DNA of 62,751 bases, taken from IMG/VR virus record IMGVR_UViG_3300019776_000051, positions 1 to 62,751 of that record; one strand, given 5' to 3'. This DNA is from a virus. Shown here piece after piece: positions 4,922-36,964 of the stretch. The first letter of the stretch is position 1. Each line of letters starts with the position of its first letter. The notes below the pieces were generated by a model. It ran no database searches and was not told the origin of the DNA. It saw only the letters and a list, made by a program, of their open reading frames with translations. A program made the position numbers and the translations under genes.

Positions 4922-7167
4922 CTAATCAATTGACTTGTTGTTCCTTCGTTTTTATATTTAGCGAAGTTAATAATTAATTTCGATTCTTTTTTCTCCGGTA
5001 TGTATAGATGCTTCTGATTAGCCATAATGCATAATCCTGAACTGATAGAGGCGTCAAACTTAGTTCTGTCATTGATGTCAAACTTAGCCCAATCCTCAAG
5101 CGTTCTTGTAAATGGCATCGTGCCCATTTCTTCAGGGTCTCTATACTTTGCTTCCAAATCTAATCCAACATACTTCTCAATATAGGATTCAATAGCGGAG
5201 GCGTGTGCTTGCTTAACATCTTCAGATGAGTTTGGAATACCTCCTAACTCACGCTCAGTCTTCGTTAATTTAGCCAATTGCTTATCCGGTCTATTGATAG
5301 AGAATCCTCTGTATCCCCTATTTTTTATATGGTATAAAAGCCTTGGTTTATTATTCTCCACTAAGATAGGCATTCCGTAGAATATACAAGCCATTAGCAC
5401 CTCTTCAAAGAATATTTCTGCCGTTTGTGGACGAGCAATGTACTCCAAGAAAAATTGATTGGTAGGTGCGTCATCCATATGAAACTTAGTCATACCGTGA
5501 AGTGCTCCATTAGAACCACGTCCACCTACTACCGCTGATATGTCATAAGAGTCACAGCCGAATGAACCAAGATGGTCATTGCCGGGATACTTAATTCCGT
5601 TACGTATATGCACATTGTTTTGCATATGCTTAGGAGGTGCCCAACTTATCAGGAACCTTCCACGTGTATCAGGAGTCCATATCACCTCAGTATCTTTGAT
5701 GCCATCCTTCCACGAAAATGACCCACGAGTAAGGTAATGTTCCTTAATCATTGAGTCATTATAATCAATCTGCTGATATATCTTGGTTAAGTTGAACAAG
5801 GCTTGCTTGCTCTCATCACGGAATGCGTGAGACTCCGTTCTTGGGAACTGACGATAGAACTCGTTAAGTGCATCGGCATCACTCTTCAATGAGTCAACCT
5901 CTGCCTCCCAATAGTCAATGGCTCCATTGGTAATCCAATTACCATCTACACCTTTGATAGGATTTTCAGGTTTTCTGAATACAGGGAATCCGTGTATGTC
6001 AATAAAGCCTTCCATATTCCACTCCATAGGAATAAACAATGCGTATAGACCGCTCTTAGTTTGTCCGTTGGCGTTGCGGCTCTTTACATTAGACTGCTCG
6101 TAAATATCTTTGAAGTTCTGACCTCCTTTGCTTAACGCATTAGACGTAGAACCCATCATACATTTACCAATAATCTTGCTACCCAAACGCAAACACGTTT
6201 TGGTTACACGCCAATTCTCTTTGATGTTTACAGGCTTAACCCATTTACCACTCTCATCGTGAGCTAAGAACAATAGCTTCTCTCCATCATAAGAGTTATC
6301 TTCTGTATTCTTCCAATCTATTGTGGTATCAAGTCCGTCAATCTCATTGTCGTCAGACTCATACATATTCTTCTTGGTAATCTTGGATGCCGGTACTCTG
6401 AACGCAAGCTCAGTCTTTGGTTTATCCATACCATCCATTACAGGCTTGAAGAAGAATGGGAGACGGCTATTAATAGGAACAACCTTATCGGTGAACATTT
6501 TTTTAGCATCGGCACCCGTCTTAGACAAGATACCTATACGTGCGTCACGTGCAAGCGTACCTATGTTGACACACTCTGATGATGACATAAACGAGAATCC
6601 CGAACGTCTAATCTTTAAATAGACCATTCCAAATGACCTTGGGTCTGCCTTACAGGCTTCCCAAAAAATCCAATAAAGTCTATTGGCTTCACGAAAGTCA
6701 GGATAACCTACGTCAATACTTGACCACTGTAAGTACATATAATGCGAACCGGTAATGTAGGTTTTGACGCCATTGTTCATAAACCAAAAACCTTGCTCTC
6801 GATAATCAAACTCCTGCTCAATGTAATCTACCCAACGGTCTTTAAATTCTTTCGGCTTGTTGTTCCACTGAAATATGGATTGTATTTTGGCTAAGTCTTT
6901 TGGATACTCTTTTCGTTCCCAATATTGTTCAGCCTTTGATGAGTGTCTTTGAAGACACTTTTCAGGTGCAGCGGGTAAGGCAATCTTTAATCCTTCAATT
7001 TCATAAATCTCGCCTATCTGCCCTGTCTTTGAAATAATAATAACGTCATATTGGTCATTATAGCCATACAGCCATGACCTCACTCTATTTTTGTTAGAGA
7101 TGACCGCAGGTGGGATATAATCCTTCAGCACCTTACATAGACTATTGTTTTGACCTTCGTTCTGCAA
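4918..7167 (-). CDS. terL: Terminase large subunit (packaging ATPase and nuclease)
   Basis: This 749-aa protein is the DNA-packaging motor. A divergent Walker A-like segment RRSGFSF lies at about 187-193, a Walker B-like LLFLAHDE at 298-305, and a possible coupling motif MMGSTSN near 337-343. The C-terminal part holds an RNase H-like nuclease start (FGCDSYDISAV, Asp539). Non-classical RR-x-G-x-S P-loops are common in Bacteroidota phage terminases. The start overlaps the end of the upstream 95-aa gene by 26 nt. A copy of the 16-bp palindrome (6943-6958) lies inside the coding sequence and encodes CLQRHS. Confidence 0.88.
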   Translation of the reverse strand: MQNEGQNNSLCKVLKDYIPPAVISNKNRVRSWLYGYNDQYDVIIISKTGQIGEIYEIEGLKIALPAAPEKCLQRHSSKAEQYWERKEYPKDLAKIQSIFQWNNKPKEFKDRWVDYIEQEFDYREQGFWFMNNGVKTYITGSHYMYLQWSSIDVGYPDFREANRLYWIFWEACKADPRSFGMVYLKIRRSGFSFMSSSECVNIGTLARDARIGILSKTGADAKKMFTDKVVPINSRLPFFFKPVMDGMDKPKTELAFRVPASKITKKNMYESDDNEIDGLDTTIDWKNTEDNSYDGEKLLFLAHDESGKWVKPVNIKENWRVTKTCLRLGSKIIGKCMMGSTSNALSKGGQNFKDIYEQSNVKSRNANGQTKSGLYALFIPMEWNMEGFIDIHGFPVFRKPENPIKGVDGNWITNGAIDYWEAEVDSLKSDADALNEFYRQFPRTESHAFRDESKQALFNLTKIYQQIDYNDSMIKEHYLTRGSFSWKDGIKDTEVIWTPDTRGRFLISWAPPKHMQNNVHIRNGIKYPGNDHLGSFGCDSYDISAVVGGRGSNGALHGMTKFHMDDAPTNQFFLEYIARPQTAEIFFEEVLMACIFYGMPILVENNKPRLLYHIKNRGYRGFSINRPDKQLAKLTKTERELGGIPNSSEDVKQAHASAIESYIEKYVGLDLEAKYRDPEEMGTMPFTRTLEDWAKFDINDRTKFDASISSGLCIMANQKHLYIPEKKESKLIINFAKYKNEGTTSQLIR
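6943..6958. repeat. 16-bp palindrome copy 1, inside terL
   Basis: GTGTCTTTGAAGACAC, one of ten copies of GTGTCTTYRAAGACAC. This copy lies within the terminase coding sequence and is translated. Confidence 0.9.
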
Positions 7168-17246: not shown

Positions 17247-17486
17247 TTATTTTTTTTCTTTGTGAGTTACTTCGCCTGTCTGTGTATTAATCACAGCATC
17301 AGCTCCGTACTTCTCAATTAATACTTTTTCGTTGTTTGAAAAAGCATCCATTACCTTCTCAGCTTGAGAGATAAGTGACTGCTTTTTTAATTCAAGGTCT
17401 CCAAGAGCAATCTTAATCTTAGTGAACTCTTGTGTTCCTGTCTTAATGAAATCTAATTCTTCTGCTGTTAATGTCTGATTTGCCAT
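17247..17486 (-). CDS. Small coiled-coil protein, unknown function
   Basis: The 79-aa product starts at MANQTLTAEELDFIK. I chose 17486 because it directly follows the AAACTCAAATCAAATG leader and a TATATTTG box at 17508-17515; a longer upstream start would lie within the spanin gene. Residues 12-60 form a continuous amphipathic helix, followed by a short hairpin (INTQTGEVTHKEKK). No family recognised. Confidence 0.6.
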   Translation of the reverse strand: MANQTLTAEELDFIKTGTQEFTKIKIALGDLELKKQSLISQAEKVMDAFSNNEKVLIEKYGADAVINTQTGEVTHKEKK

Positions 17487-19064: not shown

Positions 19065-19556
19065 TTACCAAAGTGCGTTAATAAGTGTTGCTGTTGTGCC
19101 GCTACCTGAGCCGTGCACCTTTACTACCTGAACAGGTAATACTGTACCTACAGGAACTGCAGTGAATGTAACCACATCTTGACCAATGGTTGTAACTTTT
19201 ACGTTACCTGCACCGCCAACATATAAGAAACATCCCGGATTGCCGTTTGATGTCTGAGGGCTTGCTGCATATACCACATATGCTTTAGCAGTTGCAGTGA
19301 AGATGTCAGCATTTAACAACAATTGTGTTTGACTAACTACTGAAATCACTGTTGCTGCAGTACCATCAGTTGTATTGTACACAATGTCACCTGTCTTTAC
19401 ATTCTTTGTATTGAATGTAGCAGCAGAGTCTACAAGAGCCGCTACAGCCACTGATGTATTTGTTCCACTTGCACTTGGTGCAGGGTATGGCACGTTTGCA
19501 TTATCACTTGGGATAACCGCTAATGCTCTTGAAAATGTTGTTTTAAAAACTGACAT
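19065..19556 (-). CDS. Putative virion (head auxiliary) protein with shared beta module
   Basis: This 163-aa protein is Ala/Val/Thr-rich and predicted all-beta. Residues about 31-100 (TNTSVAVAALVDSAATF, KTGDIVYNTTDGTAATV, AKAYVVYAAS) match a module in the 338-aa ring protein and more weakly in the capsid protein. The C-terminal 60 residues form another beta domain (GNVKVTTIGQDVVTFTAV). It could be a capsid decoration protein. It is separated from the main head genes, which is common for auxiliary proteins. Confidence 0.6.
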   Translation of the reverse strand: MSVFKTTFSRALAVIPSDNANVPYPAPSASGTNTSVAVAALVDSAATFNTKNVKTGDIVYNTTDGTAATVISVVSQTQLLLNADIFTATAKAYVVYAASPQTSNGNPGCFLYVGGAGNVKVTTIGQDVVTFTAVPVGTVLPVQVVKVHGSGSGTTATLINALW

Positions 19557-21601: not shown

Positions 21602-22063
21602 ATGAAAACAACACCAAAAGACTACCTAAAATTTTGGAGAGTCATCAGGTATTACTACAAGGCAAAGTTCCAATTAAGCCAAGCTGACCTCGACATAATC
21701 TTGTTTCTTTACTCAGAAGGGTACTTTGGGAAGGAGAAGTTTGACGAGTTTGCAGAACTCGTAAGTTGGGAAGTGGGAAGGTTTAAAAGACTGCACAAAG
21801 AAGGTTGGATTGAAACCTTCAGAAGACGTGGACCTAATGGCAGGGCACTTTACCAACTCAGCTACAAGGCAACTCGTCTTGTGCTTGACATCTACAGGAA
21901 ACTAAATGGGGAAGAAATCCCGACAAGTATTTCTGCAAACCCTATGTTCTTGAAGAATGTCTCCTACAACGATAAGGTTTACAGAAATATGATTATCGAG
22001 ATGAATGCTTATCAAAAAGCCAATAAGTACAGAAAGCCTGCACCTGAATCTACCGAAGACTAA
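21602..22063 (+). CDS. Winged-helix transcriptional regulator
   Basis: This 153-aa protein is the only plus-strand gene in the late block. Residues 25-110 fit a MarR-like winged helix: SQADLDIILFLYSEGYFGK, a recognition region (SWEVGRFKRLHKEGWIETF) and a wing (RRRGPNGRALYQLSYKATRL). The C-terminal 40 residues are helical. It is divergent from the small basic gene operon, with adjacent promoters, so it may regulate both. Its stop overlaps the end of the convergent groES gene. Confidence 0.7.
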   Translation: MKTTPKDYLKFWRVIRYYYKAKFQLSQADLDIILFLYSEGYFGKEKFDEFAELVSWEVGRFKRLHKEGWIETFRRRGPNGRALYQLSYKATRLVLDIYRKLNGEEIPTSISANPMFLKNVSYNDKVYRNMIIEMNAYQKANKYRKPAPESTED

Positions 22064-22317
22064 ATCACAACCACCACGTCTCTCTCAGAGATGATGGTGT
22101 ACTGCGTATCATCTATCAGCATCGTGAAGCTGTGAGCCTTGTCATAGTAAAGCTCATCGCCTTCGTCAATGACACTCACATCAGTGCCGGGTGCTATCAC
22201 CATCGCTCGCTTGTAGCGTAGCTGATTGGTATCCTCACCCGACAATATCAAGCCACTCTCAGTGGTTACTGTCTCTTGTACATCTTTGACTACAATGTAT
22301 TTGCCTATTGGTTTCAT
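22060..22317 (-). CDS. groES: Co-chaperonin GroES
   Basis: This 85-aa protein caps the GroEL ring. It shows the cpn10 pattern: MKPIGKYIVVKDVQE at the start, a mobile-loop region TTESGLILSGED, the strand KRAMVIAPGTD, GDELYYDKAHSF and a C-terminal ISERDVVVVI. It is slightly short of the usual 95-97 residues. It lies at the end of the groEL-tad2-groES run on the minus strand, a reversed and interrupted order compared with bacterial groES-groEL. The stop is shared with the convergent regulator gene. Confidence 0.88.
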   Translation of the reverse strand: MKPIGKYIVVKDVQETVTTESGLILSGEDTNQLRYKRAMVIAPGTDVSVIDEGDELYYDKAHSFTMLIDDTQYTIISERDVVVVI

Positions 22318-22320
22318 ATT

Positions 22321-22572
22321 CTAATCGTTTAATACTATTACCCAATCTTCAGCAAGCATATCAGTTTGAGATGCCAACCAAGGAACTCTACTTTTAGGAG
22401 CGTCAGGGTTTTCTGTTTGTAATCCTGTTGTGTCGATGAAGATATAAGGATGTGTCATCTTGCTGTGTTCGTCAGGAACTTGCAGCTCAATAAAAATTCC
22501 TTTACCATTCCATCCCTTGCGAGCAACCTTTGCTCCAAGTTTTAAATCTTCTAATGCTTGTCCAAAATTCAT
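22321..22572 (-). CDS. DUF2829 protein, Tad2-like (anti-Thoeris candidate)
   Basis: The 83-aa product starts MNFGQALEDLKLGAKVARKG and ends WLASQTDMLAEDWVIVLND. RKGWNGKG near residue 19 and the closing WxAS-x-x-DMLAxDW motif are diagnostic of DUF2829. Members of this family include Tad2 from phage SPO1, which sequesters the cyclic-ADPR-type signal of Thoeris immunity. The start at 22572 is preferred because a longer start would run into groEL. It is three bases from groES. That this copy blocks Thoeris is inference; the family call is strong. Confidence 0.8.
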   Translation of the reverse strand: MNFGQALEDLKLGAKVARKGWNGKGIFIELQVPDEHSKMTHPYIFIDTTGLQTENPDAPKSRVPWLASQTDMLAEDWVIVLND

Positions 22573-22593
22573 AAAATTCAATTTAATTGTGAT

Positions 22594-22607
22594 GTTCCAC
22601 GTGGAAC
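22594..22607. promoter_or_regulatory. parS-like palindrome, copy 2
   Basis: GTTCCACGTGGAAC lies in the short gap between groEL and the Tad2-like gene. It is identical to 8136-8149. A perfect 14-bp palindrome twice in 62 kb is unlikely by chance. Confidence 0.6.
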
Positions 22608-22609
22608 GT

Positions 22610-24229
22610 TTATTGTTGTTGCTCGTATGTACGAGCCATTGTGATAATTGCATTGGTACTTAGGATGGTTGTAGCTACGCTGACTGCGTTTTGCAACGCT
22701 GACCTTGTAACTTTCAACGGGTCAATAACACCCATCGCCACCAAGTCACCCATCTCACCTGTCTTCAGGTTGTATCCGTGACCAACAGGAGTGCTATCCT
22801 TGTACACATCGCTTGGTTTCAACCCTGCGTTAGCCAAAATTTGTTGGAATGGAGCCATTAAAGCATCTCTTAAAATGCGTAATGCAGCGTCATACTCCTT
22901 ACTTGCCTCAGCATTTGTAAACAAATCTGCTGACTCATCAAGCAATGCCTTTCCGGCACCCGGTAAAATTCCTTCCTCAAGTGCGGAACGAACAGCACAC
23001 ACAGCGTCATCAACCCTGTCGTACAACTCTTTCTGCTCAAGGTCAGTCTGACCACCCACAAATATCACACCTATGCCACCTGTAAGTGAGGCAATACGCT
23101 CCAATAAGAAGTCTTTGTCCCCTTTCTTAGTAGCTTCTTTGTGTGCATCCCACAATTGCTTAACTCTCTCTTCAACTTTTGTCTCGTCAGCTTTAGCTGC
23201 ACTGCGAATAATGACAGTCTTGTCCTTGCTCACAATAACTTTTGCTGCGTGACCTAAGTCTCCGTAGTTGATATGGCTCAAATCGTCACCCGTCTTCTCA
23301 CTATAGTAAGTCGCTCCTACACTAATCGCAATATCTTGCATCAACTCGTGCTGCTTGTAGCCAAAGTTTGGCGGAGGTACAGCTACCACTTTCAAATTTC
23401 CCTTAACTGAGTTAGCTGCAAGCGTGTTCACCACATTGGTATTACACGGAGAAATAATCAACAGCTTCTTGCCCTCAGAAATAATTGGTTTCAACACGTT
23501 CTCAATCTGAAGAATGTTCGCTATCTCCATATCGCACACCAATACCATCACGTCCTCAAACACACACTCGTCTTTCTTGGCATCGTTGATAAACATCGGA
23601 CTCAAATATCCTCTGTCAAACTTCAAACCCTTAGTCGTCTCAGCATATGTCTCACTTGTTTGGCTTCTTTCCACAGTTACAATACCGGTCTTGCCCACAT
23701 CCTTATACACCTCAGCAATAATGCGACCAATCTCTCTGTCATTGTTGGCACTGATAGCAGCTACGTCAAGTAGCATACTGCTACTGACCTTTTTGGCTTT
23801 ACGTCTTAACTTGTCCACCACCTTGTTGCTTATGTCCACCATATGTCTTAGCACCTCAGTCCTGTTCATATCCTCTTTGATATGCTCAAGTCCACCAAGC
23901 ACCAATCCTTCGGTCAACACAATCGCTGTTGTTGTACCATCACCGGCAGCGGTAGCTGTCTTGTCTGCCGCCTCCTTCATCATCTTAACCGCAAGGTTCT
24001 CACTTGGGTCAATCAGGTCAATTGACTTGGCAACTGTTACACCATCCTTAGTAACTGTGATGCCGTGTGTGTGATGTGGACTCTCAATGAGTACAGTGTT
24101 ACCACTTGGTCCAAGTGTTGACTTAACAGCCTTGGACATCTTAACTACACCGCTGATTAATTTCTTCCTGCCGTCCGAACCGAACTGCAAATCCTTGGGT
24201 GAGTACCCAATTCCTGATGTTTCTACCAT
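22610..24229 (-). CDS. groEL: Chaperonin GroEL
   Basis: This 539-aa protein is a full-length group I chaperonin. The ATP-binding motif GDGTTTA is at 96-102 (Asp97, equivalent to E. coli Asp87), and Asp408 in RVDDAVCAVRSALEEG corresponds to the hydrolysis residue Asp398. Other family signatures include TLGPSGNTV, FDRGYLSPMFIND and DPLKVTRSALQ. It lacks the Gly-Gly-Met tail and ends RTYEQQQ. The start at 24229 (MVETSGIGYS) is chosen because an in-frame upstream ATG coincides with the -7 box at 24257-24264. Long insertions or losses are not seen, so it is probably active. Confidence 0.95.
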   Translation of the reverse strand: MVETSGIGYSPKDLQFGSDGRKKLISGVVKMSKAVKSTLGPSGNTVLIESPHHTHGITVTKDGVTVAKSIDLIDPSENLAVKMMKEAADKTATAAGDGTTTAIVLTEGLVLGGLEHIKEDMNRTEVLRHMVDISNKVVDKLRRKAKKVSSSMLLDVAAISANNDREIGRIIAEVYKDVGKTGIVTVERSQTSETYAETTKGLKFDRGYLSPMFINDAKKDECVFEDVMVLVCDMEIANILQIENVLKPIISEGKKLLIISPCNTNVVNTLAANSVKGNLKVVAVPPPNFGYKQHELMQDIAISVGATYYSEKTGDDLSHINYGDLGHAAKVIVSKDKTVIIRSAAKADETKVEERVKQLWDAHKEATKKGDKDFLLERIASLTGGIGVIFVGGQTDLEQKELYDRVDDAVCAVRSALEEGILPGAGKALLDESADLFTNAEASKEYDAALRILRDALMAPFQQILANAGLKPSDVYKDSTPVGHGYNLKTGEMGDLVAMGVIDPLKVTRSALQNAVSVATTILSTNAIITMARTYEQQQ

Positions 24230-24256
24230 TTGATTATAATTTAATTTACTGATGTA

Positions 24257-24264
24257 CAAATATA
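24257..24264 (-). promoter_or_regulatory. Promoter -7 box for groEL-tad2-groES
   Basis: Minus strand reads TATATTTG, 27 nt before the groEL start. No good -33 TTG is seen at the usual spacing. The box decides the choice of start codon for groEL. Confidence 0.55.
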
Positions 24265-24346: not shown

Positions 24347-24662
24347 ATGTCAAGTTTTGCCGGGATAATGTCAAATTATGTCGGTTTTATTTATGGCTAT
24401 CACAAGTCGACATTGGCTTAAACGCAATGCTGTAAAGGATTTGATACATCAATCAGCATCTAAATGCTGATAATGCAGAAATTTTTCCCCTATTCTTTAT
24501 ATATATTTCCCTCCTTTTATATATTTTTTTCCCATTAGAATTTCTCTTTAAAATCGACATTTTCGACATTAAAGAAATAAAGTATTAATAATCAATAAAT
24601 TAGAAAAATAAAATCGACATAAAAACGACATAAAACAAAGACAAAAATGTCAAAGTCGACAT
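24347..24662. other. Iteron region 1: ten YGACAT sites in a gene-free stretch
   Basis: Gene-free region upstream of groEL. CGACAT or TGACAT occurs at 24347, 24368, 24378, 24408, 24555, 24564, 24615, 24626, 24647 and 24657, on both strands. Two are spaced pairs: 24555/24564 (9-bp step) and 24615/24626 (11-bp step). A pyrimidine-rich, A/T-rich stretch lies at 24484-24545. The same pair layout recurs at 34389-34537. Likely a replication origin or operator array. Confidence 0.65.
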
Positions 24663-25309: not shown

Positions 25310-25453
25310 AAAAAGAGAGAAAAGGGACAAAGAGAGACGCCTTAGCCCCTGCCTACCCATATTCAAGTCTAAACATTGTATGCCCTTTGTTCATTACTAA
25401 ACGCCTGACAGCAAAGAATTTTCAGCCTGAAATAAAAAAAAGTTTAAAAAAGT

Positions 25454-26183: not shown

Positions 26184-27047
26184 ATGCAAACAGGCATCAT
26201 TTACACAACCACAGGTCAAAGAGAAAGAGGTGAGGTTTCAAGCTACCACAGGAAACCACAGCCCCTGTTTTTGAACAAGACTAAGCACGCTGTAGACGTA
26301 GCAGGTCTTAAAAAAGCCGAACAAAGAACCGCTATCAAATTCGAGGGCGGTGACTATGAGGCTAAGTTTACAATAGGCTTCGAGGTCGAGAAAAATCAGC
26401 TAAGCCGTAACGCTGTGAAAGAGTACGAACTTTTTTGTGGCTTCGAGCGTGACGGGTCTTGTGGCTATGAGGCTGTCACTCACGTACTACCATTGCTACC
26501 GGCAGGTAAGTGGCGTACAAAGGTTTTTGACCTTATGCACAAGGCTGAGAAGATTATCGATGACAGATATAGCCCCTCAGACAGACGCTGTGGCGGTCAT
26601 ATCACCATTGCGGCTGATGGCTTCACAGGTGAGCAATTGAGAGCAGCCGTTCGTAAAAATGCAGGTATCGTTTACGCCCTGTTTCGCAATAGACTTGAGA
26701 ACAGGTATTGCAACGCCAACAACAGGATGCAGGATATTTCAGGTGACAGGTATCAGGTGAGCCTTGCAAAGGGCAATTGCCTTGAGTTTAGACTACCATC
26801 ACGCTTCGAGTCAGTGAAACAAATGATGAGAAGATATGAGCTGTTTTACGAACTTGTAAACTACAGCATCAACAAGCCTAATGGGTCACACGAGGCGTTT
26901 CTTAAGACCATCACGCCTATCGTTATCTCAATGTACAACGGAGACACTGATAAGGCTAATGAGGTTCTGAGACTTGCTAAGCTATTCAGAGCCTACATCC
27001 TGAAAGGTGAGATACATCAAGACATCCTGAGGTACTTGAGCCGATAA
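26184..27047 (+). CDS. Amidoligase (ATP-dependent COOH-NH2 ligase family)
   Basis: This 287-aa protein matches the phage/bacterial 'amidoligase_2' type of the glutamine-synthetase-like superfamily. Motifs: GFEVE (65-69), ERDGSCGYEAV (88-98), CGGHI (136-140) and LEFRLPSRF (200-208); their order and acidic/basic residues fit the Mg-ATP site. Such enzymes join amino or peptide groups by amide bonds. A class II amidotransferase/GGCT fusion is encoded 1.6 kb downstream in the same operon, a pairing previously noted for this family by comparative genomics. The substrate is unknown. Its transcript ends at palindrome copy 4 and ribozyme 1. Confidence 0.75.
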   Translation: MQTGIIYTTTGQRERGEVSSYHRKPQPLFLNKTKHAVDVAGLKKAEQRTAIKFEGGDYEAKFTIGFEVEKNQLSRNAVKEYELFCGFERDGSCGYEAVTHVLPLLPAGKWRTKVFDLMHKAEKIIDDRYSPSDRRCGGHITIAADGFTGEQLRAAVRKNAGIVYALFRNRLENRYCNANNRMQDISGDRYQVSLAKGNCLEFRLPSRFESVKQMMRRYELFYELVNYSINKPNGSHEAFLKTITPIVISMYNGDTDKANEVLRLAKLFRAYILKGEIHQDILRYLSR

Positions 27048-27059
27048 AATATGAGGGGA

Positions 27060-27075
27060 GTGTCTTCAAAGACAC
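27060..27075. repeat. 16-bp palindrome copy 4, before ribozyme 1
   Basis: GTGTCTTCAAAGACAC, extended by flanks to a 22-bp palindrome (GGAGTGTC...GACACTCC). It starts 13 nt after the amidoligase stop and ends three bases before ribozyme 1. Confidence 0.92.
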
Positions 27076-27078
27076 TCC

Positions 27079-27130
27079 GCTGTCGGGGGATGAGTTGTCC
27101 TCCCTGATGAGTCCCAAAGGACGAAACAGC
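27079..27130 (+). ncRNA. Hammerhead ribozyme 1 (type III)
   Basis: All core elements are present. Stem III GCTGT (27079-27083) pairs with ACAGC (27126-27130). The cleavage nucleotide is C27084 (GTC). Stem I is GGGGGA/TCCTCC with loop TGAGTTG. CTGATGA is at 27104-27110, stem II is GTCC/GGAC with loop CAAA, and GAA is at 27123-27125. The open end is stem III. Self-cleavage would leave the 3' end of the amidoligase mRNA at the palindrome hairpin and give the next gene a 90-nt 5' leader. Confidence 0.93.
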
Positions 27131-27174
27131 AATTTAAACCGGAGGTTTGAAACGCCTCCACAACCACAATCAAT

Positions 27175-27369
27175 ATGAAAAAATCAGTAATCACAAAAAT
27201 CGCAATCCTGTTTAGTGCAGGGCTATTCGGGTCAATGACGGCAATCTATTCAATCTATGATATGGACGTGCCGATGGGTATTACCATCCCGATGCTAATC
27301 GTGTCAATCCTTTTAGTCGCTGTGTCTATGCAGTGGCTTGAGAAGGAGTTAAAGAAAATCATTAAGTAA
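27175..27369 (+). CDS. Small membrane protein with two transmembrane helices
   Basis: This 64-aa protein has a basic start, helix one (IAILFSAGLFGSMTAIYSIY), a short loop, helix two (TIPMLIVSILLVAVSMQWL) and a basic tail (EKELKKIIK). It is the first gene after ribozyme 1. Its leader holds a GGAGG/CCTCC hairpin at 27141-27159. Possible roles include superinfection exclusion or an envelope function. Confidence 0.7.
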   Translation: MKKSVITKIAILFSAGLFGSMTAIYSIYDMDVPMGITIPMLIVSILLVAVSMQWLEKELKKIIK

Positions 27370-27388
27370 TCCTTAAAATCAATTGACA

Positions 27389-27967
27389 ATGAGACAGATA
27401 ACAAGAGACATCGTGAACGCTTTTCAGAACAGCCGTTCACTTACAATTGGCAACAGCCGTACAAATGGCGAGAGCCTGTGGCTATTCGGTAACAAGATAG
27501 CTGAAATCAGAAGGGATGGGCTATGGATAACAAATGCGGGATGGGATAGCAAGACCACAAAGGAAAGGCTCAATGGTTTATCAGGGGTCAACATCGTACA
27601 ACGCAGGGGCGTTTGGTTATTGAATGACAGGGTGTGGGATGGTAGATGGGTGAACGTGGATGCGTGGAATGATGGCATCACCTATGTGAATGATGAATCG
27701 CCACGTGAGGAGAATGAGCAGGAGTTTGACGTGACAAGTGAATGGACTAATGAGGGCTACAGCCGACCTGTGTATTCAATCTACCATACGTTGGTGGAGA
27801 ATGACCTTGTACAGGTGGAGCAGGTGCTAAGTGAGGCAGGGATACCATCACGCAGGATGGAATCAGATACTGAAGGTGTGTATAGACCAAACTATTTTAT
27901 AGTCGTGCGTCCTGAGAACGTGGTTCGTGCGAGTTCAGTATTGTGCGAGAACTATTCATTGGTTTAA
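27389..27967 (+). CDS. Hypothetical early protein with DUF2007-like C-terminal domain
   Basis: This 192-aa protein starts MRQITRDIVNAFQNSRSLTI. Residues 1-90 (SLWLFGNKIAEIRRDGLWIT, then WLLNDRVWDGRWVNVDAW) look like a small beta domain seen beside phage amidoligases. Residues about 125-190 (YSIYHTLVENDLVQVEQVLSEAGIPSRRM, PNYFIVVRPENVVRASSVL) fit the ferredoxin-like DUF2007 signal-transducing fold. A Glu-rich linker joins them. Its stop is ten bases before palindrome copy 5 and ribozyme 2. Confidence 0.65.
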   Translation: MRQITRDIVNAFQNSRSLTIGNSRTNGESLWLFGNKIAEIRRDGLWITNAGWDSKTTKERLNGLSGVNIVQRRGVWLLNDRVWDGRWVNVDAWNDGITYVNDESPREENEQEFDVTSEWTNEGYSRPVYSIYHTLVENDLVQVEQVLSEAGIPSRRMESDTEGVYRPNYFIVVRPENVVRASSVLCENYSLV

Positions 27968-27976
27968 CAAGTGGGG

Positions 27977-27992
27977 GTGTCTTCAAAGACAC
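27977..27992. repeat. 16-bp palindrome copy 5, before ribozyme 2
   Basis: GTGTCTTCAAAGACAC, directly abutting stem III of ribozyme 2 with no spacer. Confidence 0.92.
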
Positions 27993-28044
27993 TCCGTCCC
28001 TGAGTGTGTTGCTCAGGCTGATGAGTCCGAAAGGACGAAACGGA
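27993..28044 (+). ncRNA. Hammerhead ribozyme 2 (type III)
   Basis: Stem III TCCGT (27993-27997) pairs with ACGGA (28040-28044). Cleavage follows C27998. Stem I is CCTGAG/CTCAGG with loop TGTGTTG. CTGATGA is at 28018-28024, stem II GTCC/GGAC has loop GAAA, and GAA is at 28037-28039. It lies between the 192-aa gene and the next start, 67 nt downstream of the cut. Confidence 0.95.
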
Positions 28045-28065
28045 AACCACTTAAATCAAATTCAA

Positions 28066-28260
28066 ATGACTCAAGAACAAATGACAATTGAGAGACAGCG
28101 TAATGAAACTATTCAGGACGTAATCGACAGGCTACTCTACCTACCGGCAGATAAGTTGGCAGAGTACAAGCACTACCTTGACGTGCTCGTATCAGTTTAC
28201 CCGATTGATATGGAAATCAAAGACGGAATCAGAATCTATCACGTATCAAAAAGAAAGTAG
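28066..28260 (+). CDS. Hypothetical small helical protein (64 aa)
   Basis: The start at 28066 (MTQEQMTIERQRNETIQDVI) follows ribozyme 2 and an AAATCAAATTCAAATG leader. A longer in-frame start would place the ribozyme inside the coding sequence and is rejected. The first 40 residues are helical (IDRLLYLPADKLAEYKHYLD), followed by strands. Its stop overlaps the next ATG region by one base. Confidence 0.6.
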   Translation: MTQEQMTIERQRNETIQDVIDRLLYLPADKLAEYKHYLDVLVSVYPIDMEIKDGIRIYHVSKRK

Positions 28261-28261
28261 T

Positions 28262-28387
28262 ATGAAAGTTCTATCAGTAATCTTAATCGTATCGTTTCTT
28301 ACCTCTTGCAGTGTTGAGTATAAAATTGCTCACTACAAAAGACCGAACAGGAAGCAAACCTGTATCGTAGGAAGGAGACCATTCTAA
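28262..28387 (+). CDS. Small lipoprotein (41 aa)
   Basis: Product MKVLSVILIVSFLTSCSVEY..., with a signal peptide and lipobox LTSC (Cys16). The mature peptide is only about 26 residues and strongly basic (RPNRKQTCIVGRRPF). Tiny phage lipoproteins often block superinfection by acting at the outer membrane. That role is inferred. Confidence 0.65.
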   Translation: MKVLSVILIVSFLTSCSVEYKIAHYKRPNRKQTCIVGRRPF

Positions 28388-28399
28388 AATCAAATCAAT

Positions 28400-28561
28400 A
28401 TGGAAAGTCAACACTATTTCAAAGTTTATTACGGACAAGTATGCGTATGGTCAGTAGTCGCCCACACAAAGTGGGAGGCTATTGACAAGGCGTACTACAA
28501 ATTCATTGGGGACAGACCCCATTTAGAGCGTACAAAATTCAAGGCAAAGAAAGTTTATTAG
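28400..28561 (+). CDS. Hypothetical protein (53 aa)
   Basis: Short gene: MESQHYFKVYYGQVCVWSVV, then HTKWEAIDKAYYKFIGDRPH and a basic end. Start preceded by AAAATCAAATCAAT. Predicted strand-helix pattern; no family recognised. Confidence 0.55.
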   Translation: MESQHYFKVYYGQVCVWSVVAHTKWEAIDKAYYKFIGDRPHLERTKFKAKKVY

Positions 28562-28569
28562 AAAATAAA

Positions 28570-28601
28570 TTTGGAGATGTCTAAATTATGTCTTATCTTT
28601 G
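28570..28601 (+). promoter_or_regulatory. Internal promoter before the amidotransferase fusion
   Basis: TTTG (28570-28573), 20 nt, TATCTTTG (28594-28601): strong Bacteroidota-type promoter. It lies 66 nt before the ATG at 28668 and gives the fusion and ribozymes 3 and 4 a second source of transcript. Confidence 0.75.
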
Positions 28602-28667
28602 TTCAAATCAAGTTCAATAATCGGGTTCTATGTCTCTTTAGGCATTGCCCATAAATCAAATCTTACT

Positions 28668-29771
28668 ATGTGTGTAATCATTATCAAGCAGAAAGGGAAG
28701 CACGTCCCTCAGGAGGTTGCAAAGACCTCAGCACGAATCAATCCTCACGGATTGGGAATCATTTGGCTCGACACGTTCGAGGTTACCTATCACAAATCAG
28801 CAGAGTACAAGGTACTCGATACAAAAAGACCATTCATTGCTCACTTTAGATATGCGACCATTGGTGCTATCAACAAAGAGAACACGCATCCATTCAGATG
28901 TGGTAGCAACAAGCAAGAGTGGTTAATGATGAACGGAACGATTAGAAGTCTTGGCAATGTCAAGAAGAGTGACTCAAAGGTATTGGCTGAGAATCTTGGA
29001 GAGATACCACGTCACAAGTGGAAGAAAGAGTTGGAGCAGTATGAGTGCAGGTTCGTTACGATTAACACGCACAGCAGAACGTATCAGATTTATAACAAAG
29101 AGTTGTGGGTTCAGAAGGATGGCGTGTGGTACAGCAAAGACAACGTCCTTGAGGATACATTGGTTGCGGTGTATGGCACGTTGAAGAAAGGGTACAGCAA
29201 TTATAATCACTATTTGACAAGCTCGAAGTATGTGGGTAGTGGGGAGACCAAAGACAAATATCCATTGGTCATTAGCGGGTTGCCGTACTTGATTGAGAAG
29301 AAGGGAGTGGGTCACAATGTGGAGGTGGATGTGTTCAAAGTTAGTAGCTCAGTGCTCAGTGCATTGGACAGGTTAGAGGGGCATCCGAATTGGTACAGGC
29401 GTAAGCAGATTGACATTCAGATGAAAGGTAAGGTGCTTACCTGTTGGATTTATTTTAATCTAAGAGAGCACGAGAAAGGTCACGAGTTGCACAAGACGTA
29501 CACTCAGTTACCTAACAGAGCGAAGTGGTATGAGGAGGAGGATGAACGTGAGAGTGAGGCGTCATTCAGTAGATATACTGAACGTCAATTGAACTTGCTC
29601 GATATATTCGAGGATGAAGATTGTGAAGATTGTGGTTTTGATATAGTAAATGAGAAGCCCATTTGTGTAGATTGTTTTCACGACTTGGAACACGATGGCT
29701 TTGCGAACTACCATTGTTGTGGTTGCGATGGTTGGTTTGCTGAGGATGAGGTACTGCGATTTAGACCTTAA
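28668..29771 (+). CDS. Class II glutamine amidotransferase - GGCT fusion with zinc ribbon
   Basis: This 367-aa protein starts MCVIIIKQKG, so Cys2 becomes the N-terminal nucleophile of an Ntn hydrolase after Met removal. HFRYATIG (59-66) and LMMNGTI (86-92) are class II glutaminase motifs. Residues about 165-270 are a gamma-glutamylcyclotransferase (AIG2-like) domain: YGTLKKG (169-175), LDRLEGHPNWYRR (233-245). The C-terminus has CxxC pairs at 319/322 and 333/336 and a further CCxC, probably zinc-binding. An upstream in-frame start is rejected because the Cys must be residue two. It likely works with the amidoligase in amide or peptide metabolism. Confidence 0.85.
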   Translation: MCVIIIKQKGKHVPQEVAKTSARINPHGLGIIWLDTFEVTYHKSAEYKVLDTKRPFIAHFRYATIGAINKENTHPFRCGSNKQEWLMMNGTIRSLGNVKKSDSKVLAENLGEIPRHKWKKELEQYECRFVTINTHSRTYQIYNKELWVQKDGVWYSKDNVLEDTLVAVYGTLKKGYSNYNHYLTSSKYVGSGETKDKYPLVISGLPYLIEKKGVGHNVEVDVFKVSSSVLSALDRLEGHPNWYRRKQIDIQMKGKVLTCWIYFNLREHEKGHELHKTYTQLPNRAKWYEEEDERESEASFSRYTERQLNLLDIFEDEDCEDCGFDIVNEKPICVDCFHDLEHDGFANYHCCGCDGWFAEDEVLRFRP

Positions 29772-29787
29772 CCTCAGTAGTAGGGTG

Positions 29788-29803
29788 GTGTCTTCAAAGA
29801 CAC
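29788..29803. repeat. 16-bp palindrome copy 6, before ribozyme 3
   Basis: GTGTCTTCAAAGACAC, 16 nt after the fusion-gene stop and five bases before ribozyme 3. Confidence 0.92.
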
Positions 29804-29808
29804 TGCCC

Positions 29809-29859
29809 TCCGTCTCAGGATGTGTGTCCTGACTGATGAGCTCGAGAGAGCGAAACGGA
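29809..29859 (+). ncRNA. Hammerhead ribozyme 3 (type III)
   Basis: Stem III TCCGT (29809-29813) pairs with ACGGA (29855-29859). Cleavage follows C29814. Stem I is TCAGGA/TCCTGA with loop TGTGTG. CTGATGA is at 29833-29839, stem II GCTC/GAGC has loop GAGA, and GAA is at 29852-29854. Stem I and II sequences differ from ribozymes 1 and 2 while pairing is kept, which is covariation support. Confidence 0.96.
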
Positions 29860-29879
29860 AACCATCAATCAAAATCATT

Positions 29880-30197
29880 ATGAAAAAAGAAATCAATTTC
29901 AATCACGATGCGAAGACAATTACAGAAGCATTGGGTGTCACAGAGGATGTGAACAGAAAGTCAAAGGATGCCATCATTGACTTTATGACTGACTCAAGAA
30001 GTAGCACGAGTGTGTTGGCTGAGTATATCCATAAGTCTATGGAGTATGAGACTATCTTAATGTTGGCTACGCATCAAATCCAAAAGAAGATGGAAGATGC
30101 ATTCGGAGGTGAGGAGCTTAAGGATGCATTGAAAACATTGGCGTCTATACTTGGGCGTCCTGAGGTAAAAGAAGACGACAAGGCAAGTTTGAATTAA
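29880..30197 (+). CDS. Hypothetical helical protein (105 aa)
   Basis: The start at 29880 (MKKEINFNHDAKTITEALGV) lies 65 nt after the ribozyme 3 cut. An earlier in-frame ATG falls inside the ribozyme and is rejected. The protein is almost all helical (TSVLAEYIHKSMEYETILML, EELKDALKTLASILG) with an acidic tail. No family recognised. Confidence 0.65.
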   Translation: MKKEINFNHDAKTITEALGVTEDVNRKSKDAIIDFMTDSRSSTSVLAEYIHKSMEYETILMLATHQIQKKMEDAFGGEELKDALKTLASILGRPEVKEDDKASLN

Positions 30198-30202
30198 GCA
30201 AG

Positions 30203-30219
30203 GGCAGGGAATCCCTGCC
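30203..30219 (+). other. Hairpin before ribozyme 4
   Basis: GGCAGGG-AAT-CCCTGCC, a perfect 7-bp stem. It replaces the 16-bp palindrome at this site and shares its last two bases with stem III of ribozyme 4, so the two helices compete at the boundary. Confidence 0.85.
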
Positions 30220-30266
30220 GTCCACAGATGTGTGTCTGTGCTGATGAGTTCAAAAGAACGAAACGG
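30218..30266 (+). ncRNA. Hammerhead ribozyme 4 (type III)
   Basis: Stem III CCGT (30218-30221) pairs with ACGG (30263-30266). Cleavage follows C30222. Stem I is CACAGA/TCTGTG with loop TGTGTG. CTGATGA is at 30241-30247, stem II GTTC/GAAC has loop AAAA, and GAA is at 30260-30262. All three stems differ in sequence from the other copies. Confidence 0.95.
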
Positions 30267-30288
30267 AAACCACTTAACTTAAATGTCT

Positions 30289-34388: not shown

Positions 34389-34537
34389 ATGTCAATGTGT
34401 TTCCCCTATATTTCTATATGTGTATTTTCTATTCTTCTTATTTTTTTAAATTATAATCTGAATAAAAAATCGACATTATTGACATTGGTTCTAATAATCA
34501 GATAGTTAGCTAAAATAAACCGACATAAAACCGACAT
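34389..34537. other. Iteron region 2: paired YGACAT sites before the prim-pol/helicase gene
   Basis: Sites at 34389 (reverse), 34471/34480 (9-bp step) and 34521/34532 (11-bp step), the last ending three bases before the ATG at 34541. A pyrimidine-rich TTTCCCCTATATTTCTAT stretch precedes them. Layout and spacing copy iteron region 1 (24347-24662). Likely replication origin or autoregulatory operator for the replicative protein. Confidence 0.7.
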
Positions 34538-34540
34538 ACA

Positions 34541-36964
34541 ATGGCACATAACGTGACGATATTCCAAAATATTAGAGATACTGACACTCCGTTCTTCCGT
34601 GATGTACACGTAATCCTTGATAGGATTAAGGAAGGAGCAGGTGCTACTAAAGATTTGGTAAAGAAGATACGCTTAGAGAAGCGTAAGCCTGAGAGACAGG
34701 AACTAAAGAAGCAGTTGCCTGCAATATGTTTTAGTGGAACATTCAATAAAAGAACTGACGCCTCACTTATAGAGCACTCAGGATTGATATGCTTGGACTT
34801 CGATGGATACACTAAGCAGAAAGAATTGTTGCAGGACAAAGAGAACCTGTCAAAGAATAAGTATGTATTCTCTGTGTTCATTTCACCTTCGGGGAATGGG
34901 CTGAAAGTTTTGGTTAAGATACCGGCAGATGCAGAGAACCATACAATGTACTTCAATTCATTAGAAAAGTACTTTGCTTCCCCTTATTTCGATAAGACGA
35001 GCAAGAACCTCAGCCGAGTGTGTTACGAGTCCTATGACCCTCTAATTGCGATTAATGAGAATAGTAGCATTTGGGATGTGATTGAGGAACCTGAGTACAC
35101 TGAGGTAAGCAAGACAAGGGACAAAGCTACCATACCAATTACGGATGAGAATAAGATTGTGGAGATACTTGTCAAGTGGTGGGAGAAAAAGTATCCTATG
35201 CACGAGGGTCAACGTAATCAGAACGCATACGTTCTTGCGATGGCGTTCAATGACTTTGGCATTAACAAGAGCCTTGCATCCTACGTGCTTAATCAGTTTG
35301 CATCAGATGACTTTACGCTTAGGGAGATTGGAACGACTATCGACTCAGCGTACAGACATACTGCGAACTTCGGAACTAAGTACTACGAAGATGAAGAGCG
35401 TATCAATACCATCAAAGCAAAGTTAAGACGTGGTGTATCAAAAAAAGAGATTCGCATCCAACTGCAGGACTCCAATTTGGACAGCGATACTATCGAGTCT
35501 GTACTAAATAAGGTTGAGGAAGAGAATGCGATGCAGACATTTTGGGACAGGAACGACAGGGGAGTCATCAAGGTTGTGCACGTACAGTTCAAACAGTTCT
35601 TAGAAGATAACGGATTCTACAAGTACTGCCCTGAGGGTGGGAAGAATTATATATTTGTAAAGGTTACCAATAATTTGATTGACCACACGAGTGAGAAAGA
35701 GATTAAGGACTTCGTGCTTACGCACCTATTGGAGTTAGATGACATTGGCGTGTACAATTACTTCGCTGATAACACACGATTCTTCAAAGAAGAGTTCTTG
35801 TCACTGCTTTCAACGATTGAGATTTACTTCATTGCTGATAGCAAAGACTCATCGTATTTGTACTACAAGAATTGTGCGATTAAGATTAGCAAGGATGGTG
35901 TAACAACGCTCGACTACTTGGACTTGGGAGGATACGTGTGGAAAGACCACGTGATAGACAGGAACTTTAATCTGTGCAGCGTAACTGACAAGTGTGACTT
36001 CAAAAAGTTTGTGAGTAATATCAATGGCGGTGACCCGAGCAGAGTGAAGGCGATGGAGAGCACGATTGGATTCTTACTTCACGGATATAAGAACCTGAGC
36101 TTTTGCCCGGCTGTGATTTTGAACGATGAGGTTATTAGTGATAATCCTGAGGGTGGAACAGGTAAGGGTCTGTTGATGAGTGCTCTGAGTAAGATGAAAA
36201 AGTTAGTTGTGATTGATGGTAAGTCATTTGCTTTCGAGCGTAGCTTCGCTTATCAGTTGGTGTCAGCAGACACTCAGATACTTTGCTTCGATGACGTGAG
36301 AAAGCATTTTGACTTCGAGAGATTGTTCTCAGTAGTTACTGAGGGTCTAACACTCGAGAAGAAAAACAAGGACGCCATCAAGATACCATTCAGCAGGTCT
36401 CCGAAGATTGCCATTACTACGAACTATGCCATCAAAGGTGCAGGTAATTCATTCGCAAGAAGAAAGTGGGAGTTGGAGTTGCATCAGTATTATACCAAGG
36501 AGTTTACTCCGCTTGACGAGTTTGGTAAGTTGATGTTCGGAGATTGGAACGATGATGATTGGTGCGAGTTCGATAACTATATGATTCTGTGCTTGACCAA
36601 TTACTTGAAGACAGGACTTGTGAAGAGTAAGTTTGTGAACCTTAAGATTCGTCAGTTATCAGCAGAGACTTGTCACGAGTTCATCGAGTGGTGTGGTCTT
36701 GTAGATACGCATCATAACAGAGAGGTGATGTTGCAACCCGATATTAGACTTTATAAAAACGAGTTGTATTCTAACTTCATTGATGAGTATCCTGACTATG
36801 GACCGAGGGGTAGAATGAGTGTGAGCCGAACCAAGTTCTACAAATGGCTTATCGCCTACGGTATTTACAAAGAAGGAGTAATGCCACAAGAAGACAGAGA
36901 CCAACAAGGCAGATGGATTATTATTAGAAGCAAACCTGAGGGGCTTGAAGAAGCTCCTTTTTAA
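34541..36964 (+). CDS. Primase-polymerase / SF3 helicase replication protein
   Basis: This 807-aa protein has two enzyme parts. Residues 1-190 resemble the BT4734/VirE N-terminal domain, a prim-pol-like fold with LICLDFDGYTK (catalytic DFD at 86-88) and SPSGNGLKVLVKI. A helical linker follows (YPMHEGQRNQNAYVLAMAFN). Residues about 500-690 are an SF3-type helicase: Walker A PEGGTGKGLL (about 538-547), Walker B ILCFDDV (about 584-590), sensor IAITTNY (about 624-630). It would prime and unwind DNA at the adjacent iteron region. No phage DNA polymerase was found, so host polymerase is probably recruited. Confidence 0.88.
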   Translation: MAHNVTIFQNIRDTDTPFFRDVHVILDRIKEGAGATKDLVKKIRLEKRKPERQELKKQLPAICFSGTFNKRTDASLIEHSGLICLDFDGYTKQKELLQDKENLSKNKYVFSVFISPSGNGLKVLVKIPADAENHTMYFNSLEKYFASPYFDKTSKNLSRVCYESYDPLIAINENSSIWDVIEEPEYTEVSKTRDKATIPITDENKIVEILVKWWEKKYPMHEGQRNQNAYVLAMAFNDFGINKSLASYVLNQFASDDFTLREIGTTIDSAYRHTANFGTKYYEDEERINTIKAKLRRGVSKKEIRIQLQDSNLDSDTIESVLNKVEEENAMQTFWDRNDRGVIKVVHVQFKQFLEDNGFYKYCPEGGKNYIFVKVTNNLIDHTSEKEIKDFVLTHLLELDDIGVYNYFADNTRFFKEEFLSLLSTIEIYFIADSKDSSYLYYKNCAIKISKDGVTTLDYLDLGGYVWKDHVIDRNFNLCSVTDKCDFKKFVSNINGGDPSRVKAMESTIGFLLHGYKNLSFCPAVILNDEVISDNPEGGTGKGLLMSALSKMKKLVVIDGKSFAFERSFAYQLVSADTQILCFDDVRKHFDFERLFSVVTEGLTLEKKNKDAIKIPFSRSPKIAITTNYAIKGAGNSFARRKWELELHQYYTKEFTPLDEFGKLMFGDWNDDDWCEFDNYMILCLTNYLKTGLVKSKFVNLKIRQLSAETCHEFIEWCGLVDTHHNREVMLQPDIRLYKNELYSNFIDEYPDYGPRGRMSVSRTKFYKWLIAYGIYKEGVMPQEDRDQQGRWIIIRSKPEGLEEAPF

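Follow-up and report, generated by a model that had tools for sequence, protein, structure and literature searches.

Four hairpin-hammerhead cassettes between genes of a Bacteroidota phage may form terminator-like mRNA ends without stopping transcription

What purpose do hammerhead ribozymes serve when several of them stand in series between the genes of a phage? A 2017 review (PMC6155905) treats the role of prokaryotic hammerheads as an open question. The viral record IMGVR_UViG_3300019776_000051 of IMG/VR, whose 62,751 nucleotides (nt) were analysed in full and are here called the window, holds four type III hammerheads within about 3.2 kilobases (kb), all on the same strand and each between genes. 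A strong hairpin lies directly 5' of every one of them (4/4). We consider it probable, at roughly 0.65, that the ribozyme of this four-copy hairpin-hammerhead cassette produces mRNA 3' ends like those of a terminator while letting transcription continue.

The hammerheads lie on the plus strand at 27079..27131, 27993..28045, 29809..29860 and 30217..30268, with predicted cleavage after C27084, C27998, C29814 and C30222, respectively. All four copies have the conserved core (C3 U4 G5 A6 N7 G8 A9 / G12 A13 A14, the pair A15.1-U16.1 and a position 17 that is not G); stem III is open and stems I and II are capped. The core pattern CTGATGAGN{6,24}CGAAAC occurs four times in the window, compared with 0.01 occurrences expected from dinucleotide shuffles. 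A preliminary description of this DNA had reported four complete type III cores at these places, between genes on the coding strand, with stems that differ between copies while pairing is kept and with a shared type of loop I. All of this was confirmed, the loops of copies 1-4 being TGAGTTG, TGTGTTG, TGTGTG and TGTGTG. The Rfam type III search suggested there came out divided: against the curated gathering cut-off of RF00008 (48.5 bits), copy 1 scored above (49.2 bits) and copies 2, 3 and 4 scored below (44.7, 43.9 and 29.4 bits). Since an earlier descriptor had required the core and a first model (R1) had contained the window copies, a core-free model search was made, followed by a lineage covariance model (R2) built from 39 relatives that included neither the window nor its two closest relatives (L010 and L011). 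R2 recovered the four copies at 66.6, 68.5, 70.6 and 70.8 bits (E about 1e-16 to 7e-18), and the next-best match in the window reached 9.3 bits. All four copies are probably active as self-cleaving type III hammerheads.

Relatives were collected by means of the GATase/GGCT protein encoded 5' of cassette 3 (28668..29771, plus strand, 367 amino acids (aa)), which has a class-II glutamine amidotransferase-like N-terminus and a gamma-glutamyl cyclotransferase domain (PF06094, E=1.4e-23). The 80 related viral contigs and the window gave 81 loci. In 75 of them the lineage model detected hammerheads, 153 in all, each on the coding strand and scoring 46 bits or more; the next score below these was 18.7 bits. 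Among relatives available as whole records the type III family was present in 40 of 47, with one to four copies each. Hammerheads recur at orthologous borders, 66 of 147 behind one same gene and 35 behind another. Across 126 distinct copies the catalytic nucleotides were invariant or conserved in 125, and position 17 was C in 76, A in 45, U in 5 and never G. In the same copies 96.5% of the cells of stems I-III were paired, compared with 72.4% after shuffling, and the covariation score was 0.711 compared with 0.238 for shuffled alignments and a maximum of 0.119 when the alignment was slid. Over the different alignments these values ranged from 96.5 to 98% paired and from 0.71 to 0.73, against 0.23-0.24 shuffled. 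A conserved core with covarying stems is, as far as sequence can tell, the pattern left by selection for self-cleavage.

Two further observations concern the ribozymes themselves. About 41 hammerheads lack the usual G10.1-C11.1 pair and have a U.U or A.A mismatch in its place, while the remaining core is kept; most of them correspond in position to copy 3, and position 17 is often A (L016:6222-6274, L027:6150-6202, L041:6099-6150 and about 38 others). The cultured phage Elemovirus elemoA (L403, MT497017), whose host is Flavobacterium sp. BAL314, has one hammerhead on the minus strand at 19084-19137 (36.3 bits with RF00008) and a weak RAGATH-1-like match at 17291-17371, also on the minus strand.

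The hairpin in front of the ribozyme, the fixed geometry, the interchange with terminators and a genome-wide palindrome are absent from the preliminary description. In the window the hairpins, all on the plus strand, are GGAGTGTCTTCAAAGACACTCC in cassette 1 (27057..27078, about 9 nt past the stop codon at 27047, with no gap to stem III), GGGGTGTCTTCAAAGACACTCC in cassette 2 (27974..27995, 6 nt past the stop codon at 27967, with a 3-nt overlap with stem III), AGGGTGGTGTCTTCAAAGACACTGCCCT in cassette 3 (29782..29809, 10 nt past the stop codon at 29771) and GGCAGGGAATCCCTGCC in cassette 4 (30203..30219, 5 nt past the stop codon at 30197, with a 2-nt overlap). For 95 distinct copies, 92 of them from this lineage, the 40 nt 5' of the cleavage site folded with a mean of -17.8 kcal/mol; dinucleotide shuffles gave -8.1 and random genomic 40-mers -5.1. 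After clustering, a strong hairpin was found in 36 of 39 sequence clusters of the lineage (92%; 3.1% when shuffled), in 46 of 71 clusters from other phages (65%; 3.1% shuffled) and in 6 of 13 clusters from bacterial genomes (46%; 1.5% shuffled). Here, 'other phage' means that the fetched stretch had no detectable protein similarity to the window, so that some may be distant kin, and the bacterial set was restricted to pattern matches with real stems, chance matches having been removed. Chance hairpins are ruled out by the shuffles (1.5-3%) and by the random genomic 40-mers.

The distance between hairpin and stem III peaked at 0 in the clustered sets, that is, the two elements are flush. The hairpin sequences are diverse (76 distinct ones with all pair types and with UUCAAA, UUCG, GAAA and other loops); therefore structure, not sequence, is conserved. 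In the lineage the hairpin starts 5-8 nt past the stop codon (interquartile range). From stop codon to cleavage site the median was 39.5 nt among relatives, and copies 1-4 of the window have 37, 31, 43 and 25 nt. The distance from the cleavage site to the next ATG was mostly 65-73 nt among relatives and is 91 (ATG 27175), 68 (ATG 28066), 66 (ATG 29880) and 61 or 67 nt (ATG 30283/30289) in the window. Copy 1 has an additional small hairpin before the ATG, as have several relatives with a spacing near 90. The order of the cassette is thus stop codon, about 6 nt, stable hairpin, type III hammerhead, short A-rich leader and ATG.

Do the hairpins act as ordinary terminators? A GC-rich hairpin after the gene is present at the window cassettes. 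A U-tract directly 3' of the hairpins is absent in all four; GCUGUC, GUC, CCGUC and GUC follow instead and then the ribozyme begins. Therefore, the window hairpins are not intrinsic terminators. Across 13 genomes a strong hairpin was found at 97% of hammerhead borders and at 30% of other co-directional borders, where many of the hairpins are T-run terminators, some of them sharing the core sequence. The border behind the GATase/GGCT gene allowed a direct comparison. It carries a hammerhead in 35 loci, 34 of which also have the hairpin; where the hammerhead is missing, the same border has a hairpin with a T-run in 10 loci (for example L046, L054, L055 and L049) and a hairpin alone in 15. L046 has GCGGGGGTGTCTTCAAAGACACTCCTGC-TTTTTTT where the window has AGGGTGGTGTCTTCAAAGACACTGCCCT-CCGTC-hammerhead. 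In the relative MW202828 (terminase 79% identical) hairpins directly follow the stop codons of the corresponding genes, and no hammerhead was found in the 18.9 kb examined. Hairpins occur without a hammerhead, with a T-run or alone; of the two elements the hairpin is therefore the older or the more common. Judged from the sequences at these borders, U-tract and hammerhead are alternative ways to place an RNA end behind a hairpin. In L029, L030 and L031 a tRNA-like sequence (ACACGGGGTGCAGAATGG...TTCGATTCCCTCCCCGTGTG) stands after the GGCT gene where other relatives have the hammerhead.

We propose the following sequence of events. Each hammerhead would cut the early mRNA, during or after transcription; we infer this cutting because the core is intact and conserved. 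The upstream piece would end in the hairpin and a tail of about 3-6 nt that bears a 2',3'-cyclic phosphate, an end that would resemble one made by a terminator and be poorly accessible to 3' exonucleases. The 5'-OH of the downstream piece would sit on the first base pair of stem I, and this piece would undergo slower 5'-end-dependent decay. Hairpin-capped 3' ends and base-paired 5'-OH ends should resist the usual routes of RNA decay. RNA polymerase would run on, so that neighbouring genes would be co-transcribed and yet be expressed from separate, gene-sized mRNAs. The idea of the preliminary description that the hammerheads cut a polycistronic transcript is supported. Its statement that all four gaps belong to one operon could not be established: a Bacteroidetes-type promoter-like sequence (TTTG...TATCTTTG; 28570-28601, plus strand), a match to the consensus only, lies between copies 2 and 3. 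Further such sequences are found at 25453 and 31712. The relaxed promoter pattern occurs by chance too (mean of 19 matches in shuffled sequence), so that single matches are weak.

In the predicted folds of two of the cassettes, hairpin and active ribozyme stand side by side. In copy 3 the fold with both hairpin and active ribozyme is the minimum free energy (MFE) structure (-36.5 kcal/mol), and in copy 1 the two co-fold at -34.3 compared with an MFE of -35.1 kcal/mol. Several points weigh against the proposed 3'-end formation. In copies 2 and 4 the predicted MFE structure contains a disrupted ribozyme and is favoured by 5.3 and 6.6 kcal/mol, in folding computed without tertiary contacts. Two to three nucleotides are common to hairpin and stem III in these copies, and in the MFE structure the hairpin blocks stem III. 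These two copies may thus cut slowly or conditionally; or else the bases in common may serve to draw the upstream product off once the cut is made. Tertiary contacts stabilise the active form of hammerheads. A strong hairpin is missing from about one third of the hammerheads of other phages and from that of elemoA; therefore, the hairpin is not obligatory. Protection of the RNA ends is argued from general knowledge of RNA decay, and the related sequences that enter the counts are not independent of each other.

Could the hairpin instead couple cutting to translation? A terminating ribosome might melt the hairpin and free stem III, so that cutting would follow translation of the upstream gene. 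The short distance from the stop codon puts the hairpin in reach of such a ribosome, and copies 2 and 4 are the ones predicted to be hairpin-blocked. Hairpin and stem III overlap by at least 2 nt in 26 of 78 lineage cassettes, and the overlapping hairpins lie nearer to the stop codon (median 5 vs 7.5 nt, p=8e-6). However, longer or overlapping hairpins may begin nearer to the stop for trivial reasons, and most cassettes are flush, with an active fold that is compatible with the hairpin, as in copies 1 and 3. We consider such a switch unlikely. Another explanation would make the hairpin a by-product of a repeated, operator-like DNA palindrome that stands next to the hammerhead by positional chance. 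Indeed, the core of hairpins 1-3 is GTGTCTTYRAAGACAC, which occurs at 10 places in the window, also inside coding genes. At the hammerheads, however, the stem is extended past the palindrome by compensated G/C-rich pairs, hammerhead 4 and those of many relatives have non-palindrome hairpins with UUCG or GAAA loops, and unrelated phages and prophages have the same flush hairpin, which together leave the by-product explanation quite unlikely.

The ribozymes might also serve to excise RNA. Two hammerheads would release the gene between them, and the ends would be re-ligated by a hybrid hammerhead or by a ligase to give circular RNAs. A CCGU/ACGG stem III is common to hammerheads 2, 3 and 4, and ends could pair across copies. 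Yet stem III cross-pairing was 70% for adjacent copies and 71% for random copies of different genomes; therefore, nothing points to selection for cross-pairing, and circular or spliced RNA was rejected on this ground. Many genomes have a single hammerhead. Perreault et al. looked for such products and found none (PMC3088659). We regard this explanation as very unlikely. A reading of the motifs as mobile elements or inactive relics is hardly credible: several copies per genome speak for it, but the core stayed invariant while the stems diverged, the strand is fixed, and the copies sit at the orthologous borders described above. Relic and mobile element were rejected on these grounds. Thus, formation of a 3' end without termination is the reading we prefer.

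The palindrome deserves attention in its own right. GTGTCTTYRAAGACAC is a 16-nt near-palindrome with copies at 6943, 20116, 25294, 27060, 27977, 29788, 33816, 38763, 47901 and 62499, some within coding genes; hairpins 1-3 each contain one of these 10 copies as their core, and the hairpin of cassette 4 is without it. Most whole relatives examined have a palindrome of their own in 5-15 copies, either a different, genome-specific one (GAGGGTTYRAACCCTC, GAGAGTTYRAACTCTC, TCCGTTATAACGGA, GTCTCTTYRAAGAGAC, GTGTCGTTAACGACAC) or the same as in the window, and such a palindrome often forms the core of the cassette hairpin. Sometimes, as in the terminase gene, it occupies the identical gene position but its arms differ. 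On the transcribed strand its centre is CA at 75 and TG at 21 sites, which are not independent. The pattern is like that of a cognate binding site, on DNA or RNA, whose specificity changes across the whole set at once; the palindrome is a candidate operator/stoperator-like site or RNA hairpin. A 153-aa winged-helix-like protein (21602-22063), the lone plus-strand gene amid leftward genes, is a candidate binder of the palindrome (GTGTCTTCAAAGACAC). It is present in 12 of 14 genomes searched and is annotated as 'repressor protein' in MW202828.

The source of the array is a Bacteroidota phage. The terminase and primase relatives of the window are phages of Flavobacterium, Cellulophaga, Maribacter, Tenacibaculum and other Bacteroidota, and a megablast search against phages gave no matches. 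The ends of the window share 88 identical nt; therefore, the 62,751-nt record is probably a complete genome. The remaining genes next to the cassettes are on the plus strand. The gene 5' of cassette 1 (26184..27047) encodes a 287-aa protein without Pfam family that very weakly resembles an annotated phage amidoligase (20% identity), the gene 5' of cassette 2 (27383..27967) a 194-aa protein of phrog_554 / PF23790, and the gene between cassettes 3 and 4 (29880..30197) a 105-aa protein with no assigned function. The stretch 26184-29771 may place a remote amidoligase upstream of the GGCT protein; in phage C75C1 an amidoligase is annotated close to the GGCT gene. Elsewhere the window encodes on the minus strand a protein with a Tad2-like (Thoeris anti-defence 2-like) domain (22321-22653; PF11195, E=1.8e-24) and a phage-encoded pair of GroES (PF00166) and GroEL (phrog_5725) (22060-24259). 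Direct repeats of the CGACATAAAA type are found in two A/T-rich intergenic regions (24575-24646 and 34492-34541).

How does this arrangement compare with known ones? The preliminary description held a serial array at gene borders to be undescribed. This claim fails, since gene-flanking clusters in prophages were published in 2011. According to that work (Perreault et al. 2011, PMC3088659), prophages of A. tumefaciens (ardA), C. scindens and A. caulinodans have multiple hammerheads that flank genes singly or in short blocks, polycistronic RNAs of ~2 kb were cleaved in vitro, one triple arrangement was cleaved in E. coli, and processing into gene-length mRNAs was proposed. Gene-flanking clusters and the idea of mRNA processing are thus known already, and several hammerheads in series on one strand flanking phage genes are common to both cases. 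In contrast to the present four type III copies, those clusters come from different hosts, and the text consulted describes no hairpin-hammerhead cassette, no stop/start spacing and no interchange with terminators. The window copies share with RF00008 (Hammerhead_3) the three-stem type III fold, the CUGANGA...GAAA core and the GUC cleavage site, but they have lineage-specific loop and stem lengths, with three of four copies under the curated cut-off. With intrinsic (Rho-independent) terminators the cassettes share a stable GC-rich hairpin after the stop codon, its core often identical in this phage group; unlike there, a hammerhead takes the place of the U-tract, so that transcription should continue. 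The RiboJ-type ribozyme insulator was engineered from the sTRSV hammerhead; placed in a 5' leader, it removes the RNA in front of it and leaves a 5'-OH end that is structured, with a hairpin downstream. Here, in contrast, the hairpin precedes the ribozyme and belongs to the 3' end of the mRNA before it. RAGATH-1 hammerheads (RF03152) are likewise variants in phage-like neighbourhoods, represented by the weak match in elemoA; no match was found in the window. A search of the open-access literature, subscription papers lying outside it, found no paper that treats the hairpin upstream of the ribozyme, the cassette of fixed geometry or an interchange with terminators, and the coupling to a hairpin and the interchange with terminators appear not to have been described previously.

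The cassette trades places with terminators at one and the same border, which offers a testable answer to the question raised at the outset: 3'-end formation without termination. From such a role it would follow which end of the cut is the important one; hairpin and ribozyme together would be natural parts for separating genes in an operon. It is a tentative suggestion, somewhat short of an even chance, that phages widely use the hairpin-hammerhead module, with the ribozyme replacing the U-tract, as a non-terminating terminator. If true, this would be a general answer to the purpose of phage hammerheads.

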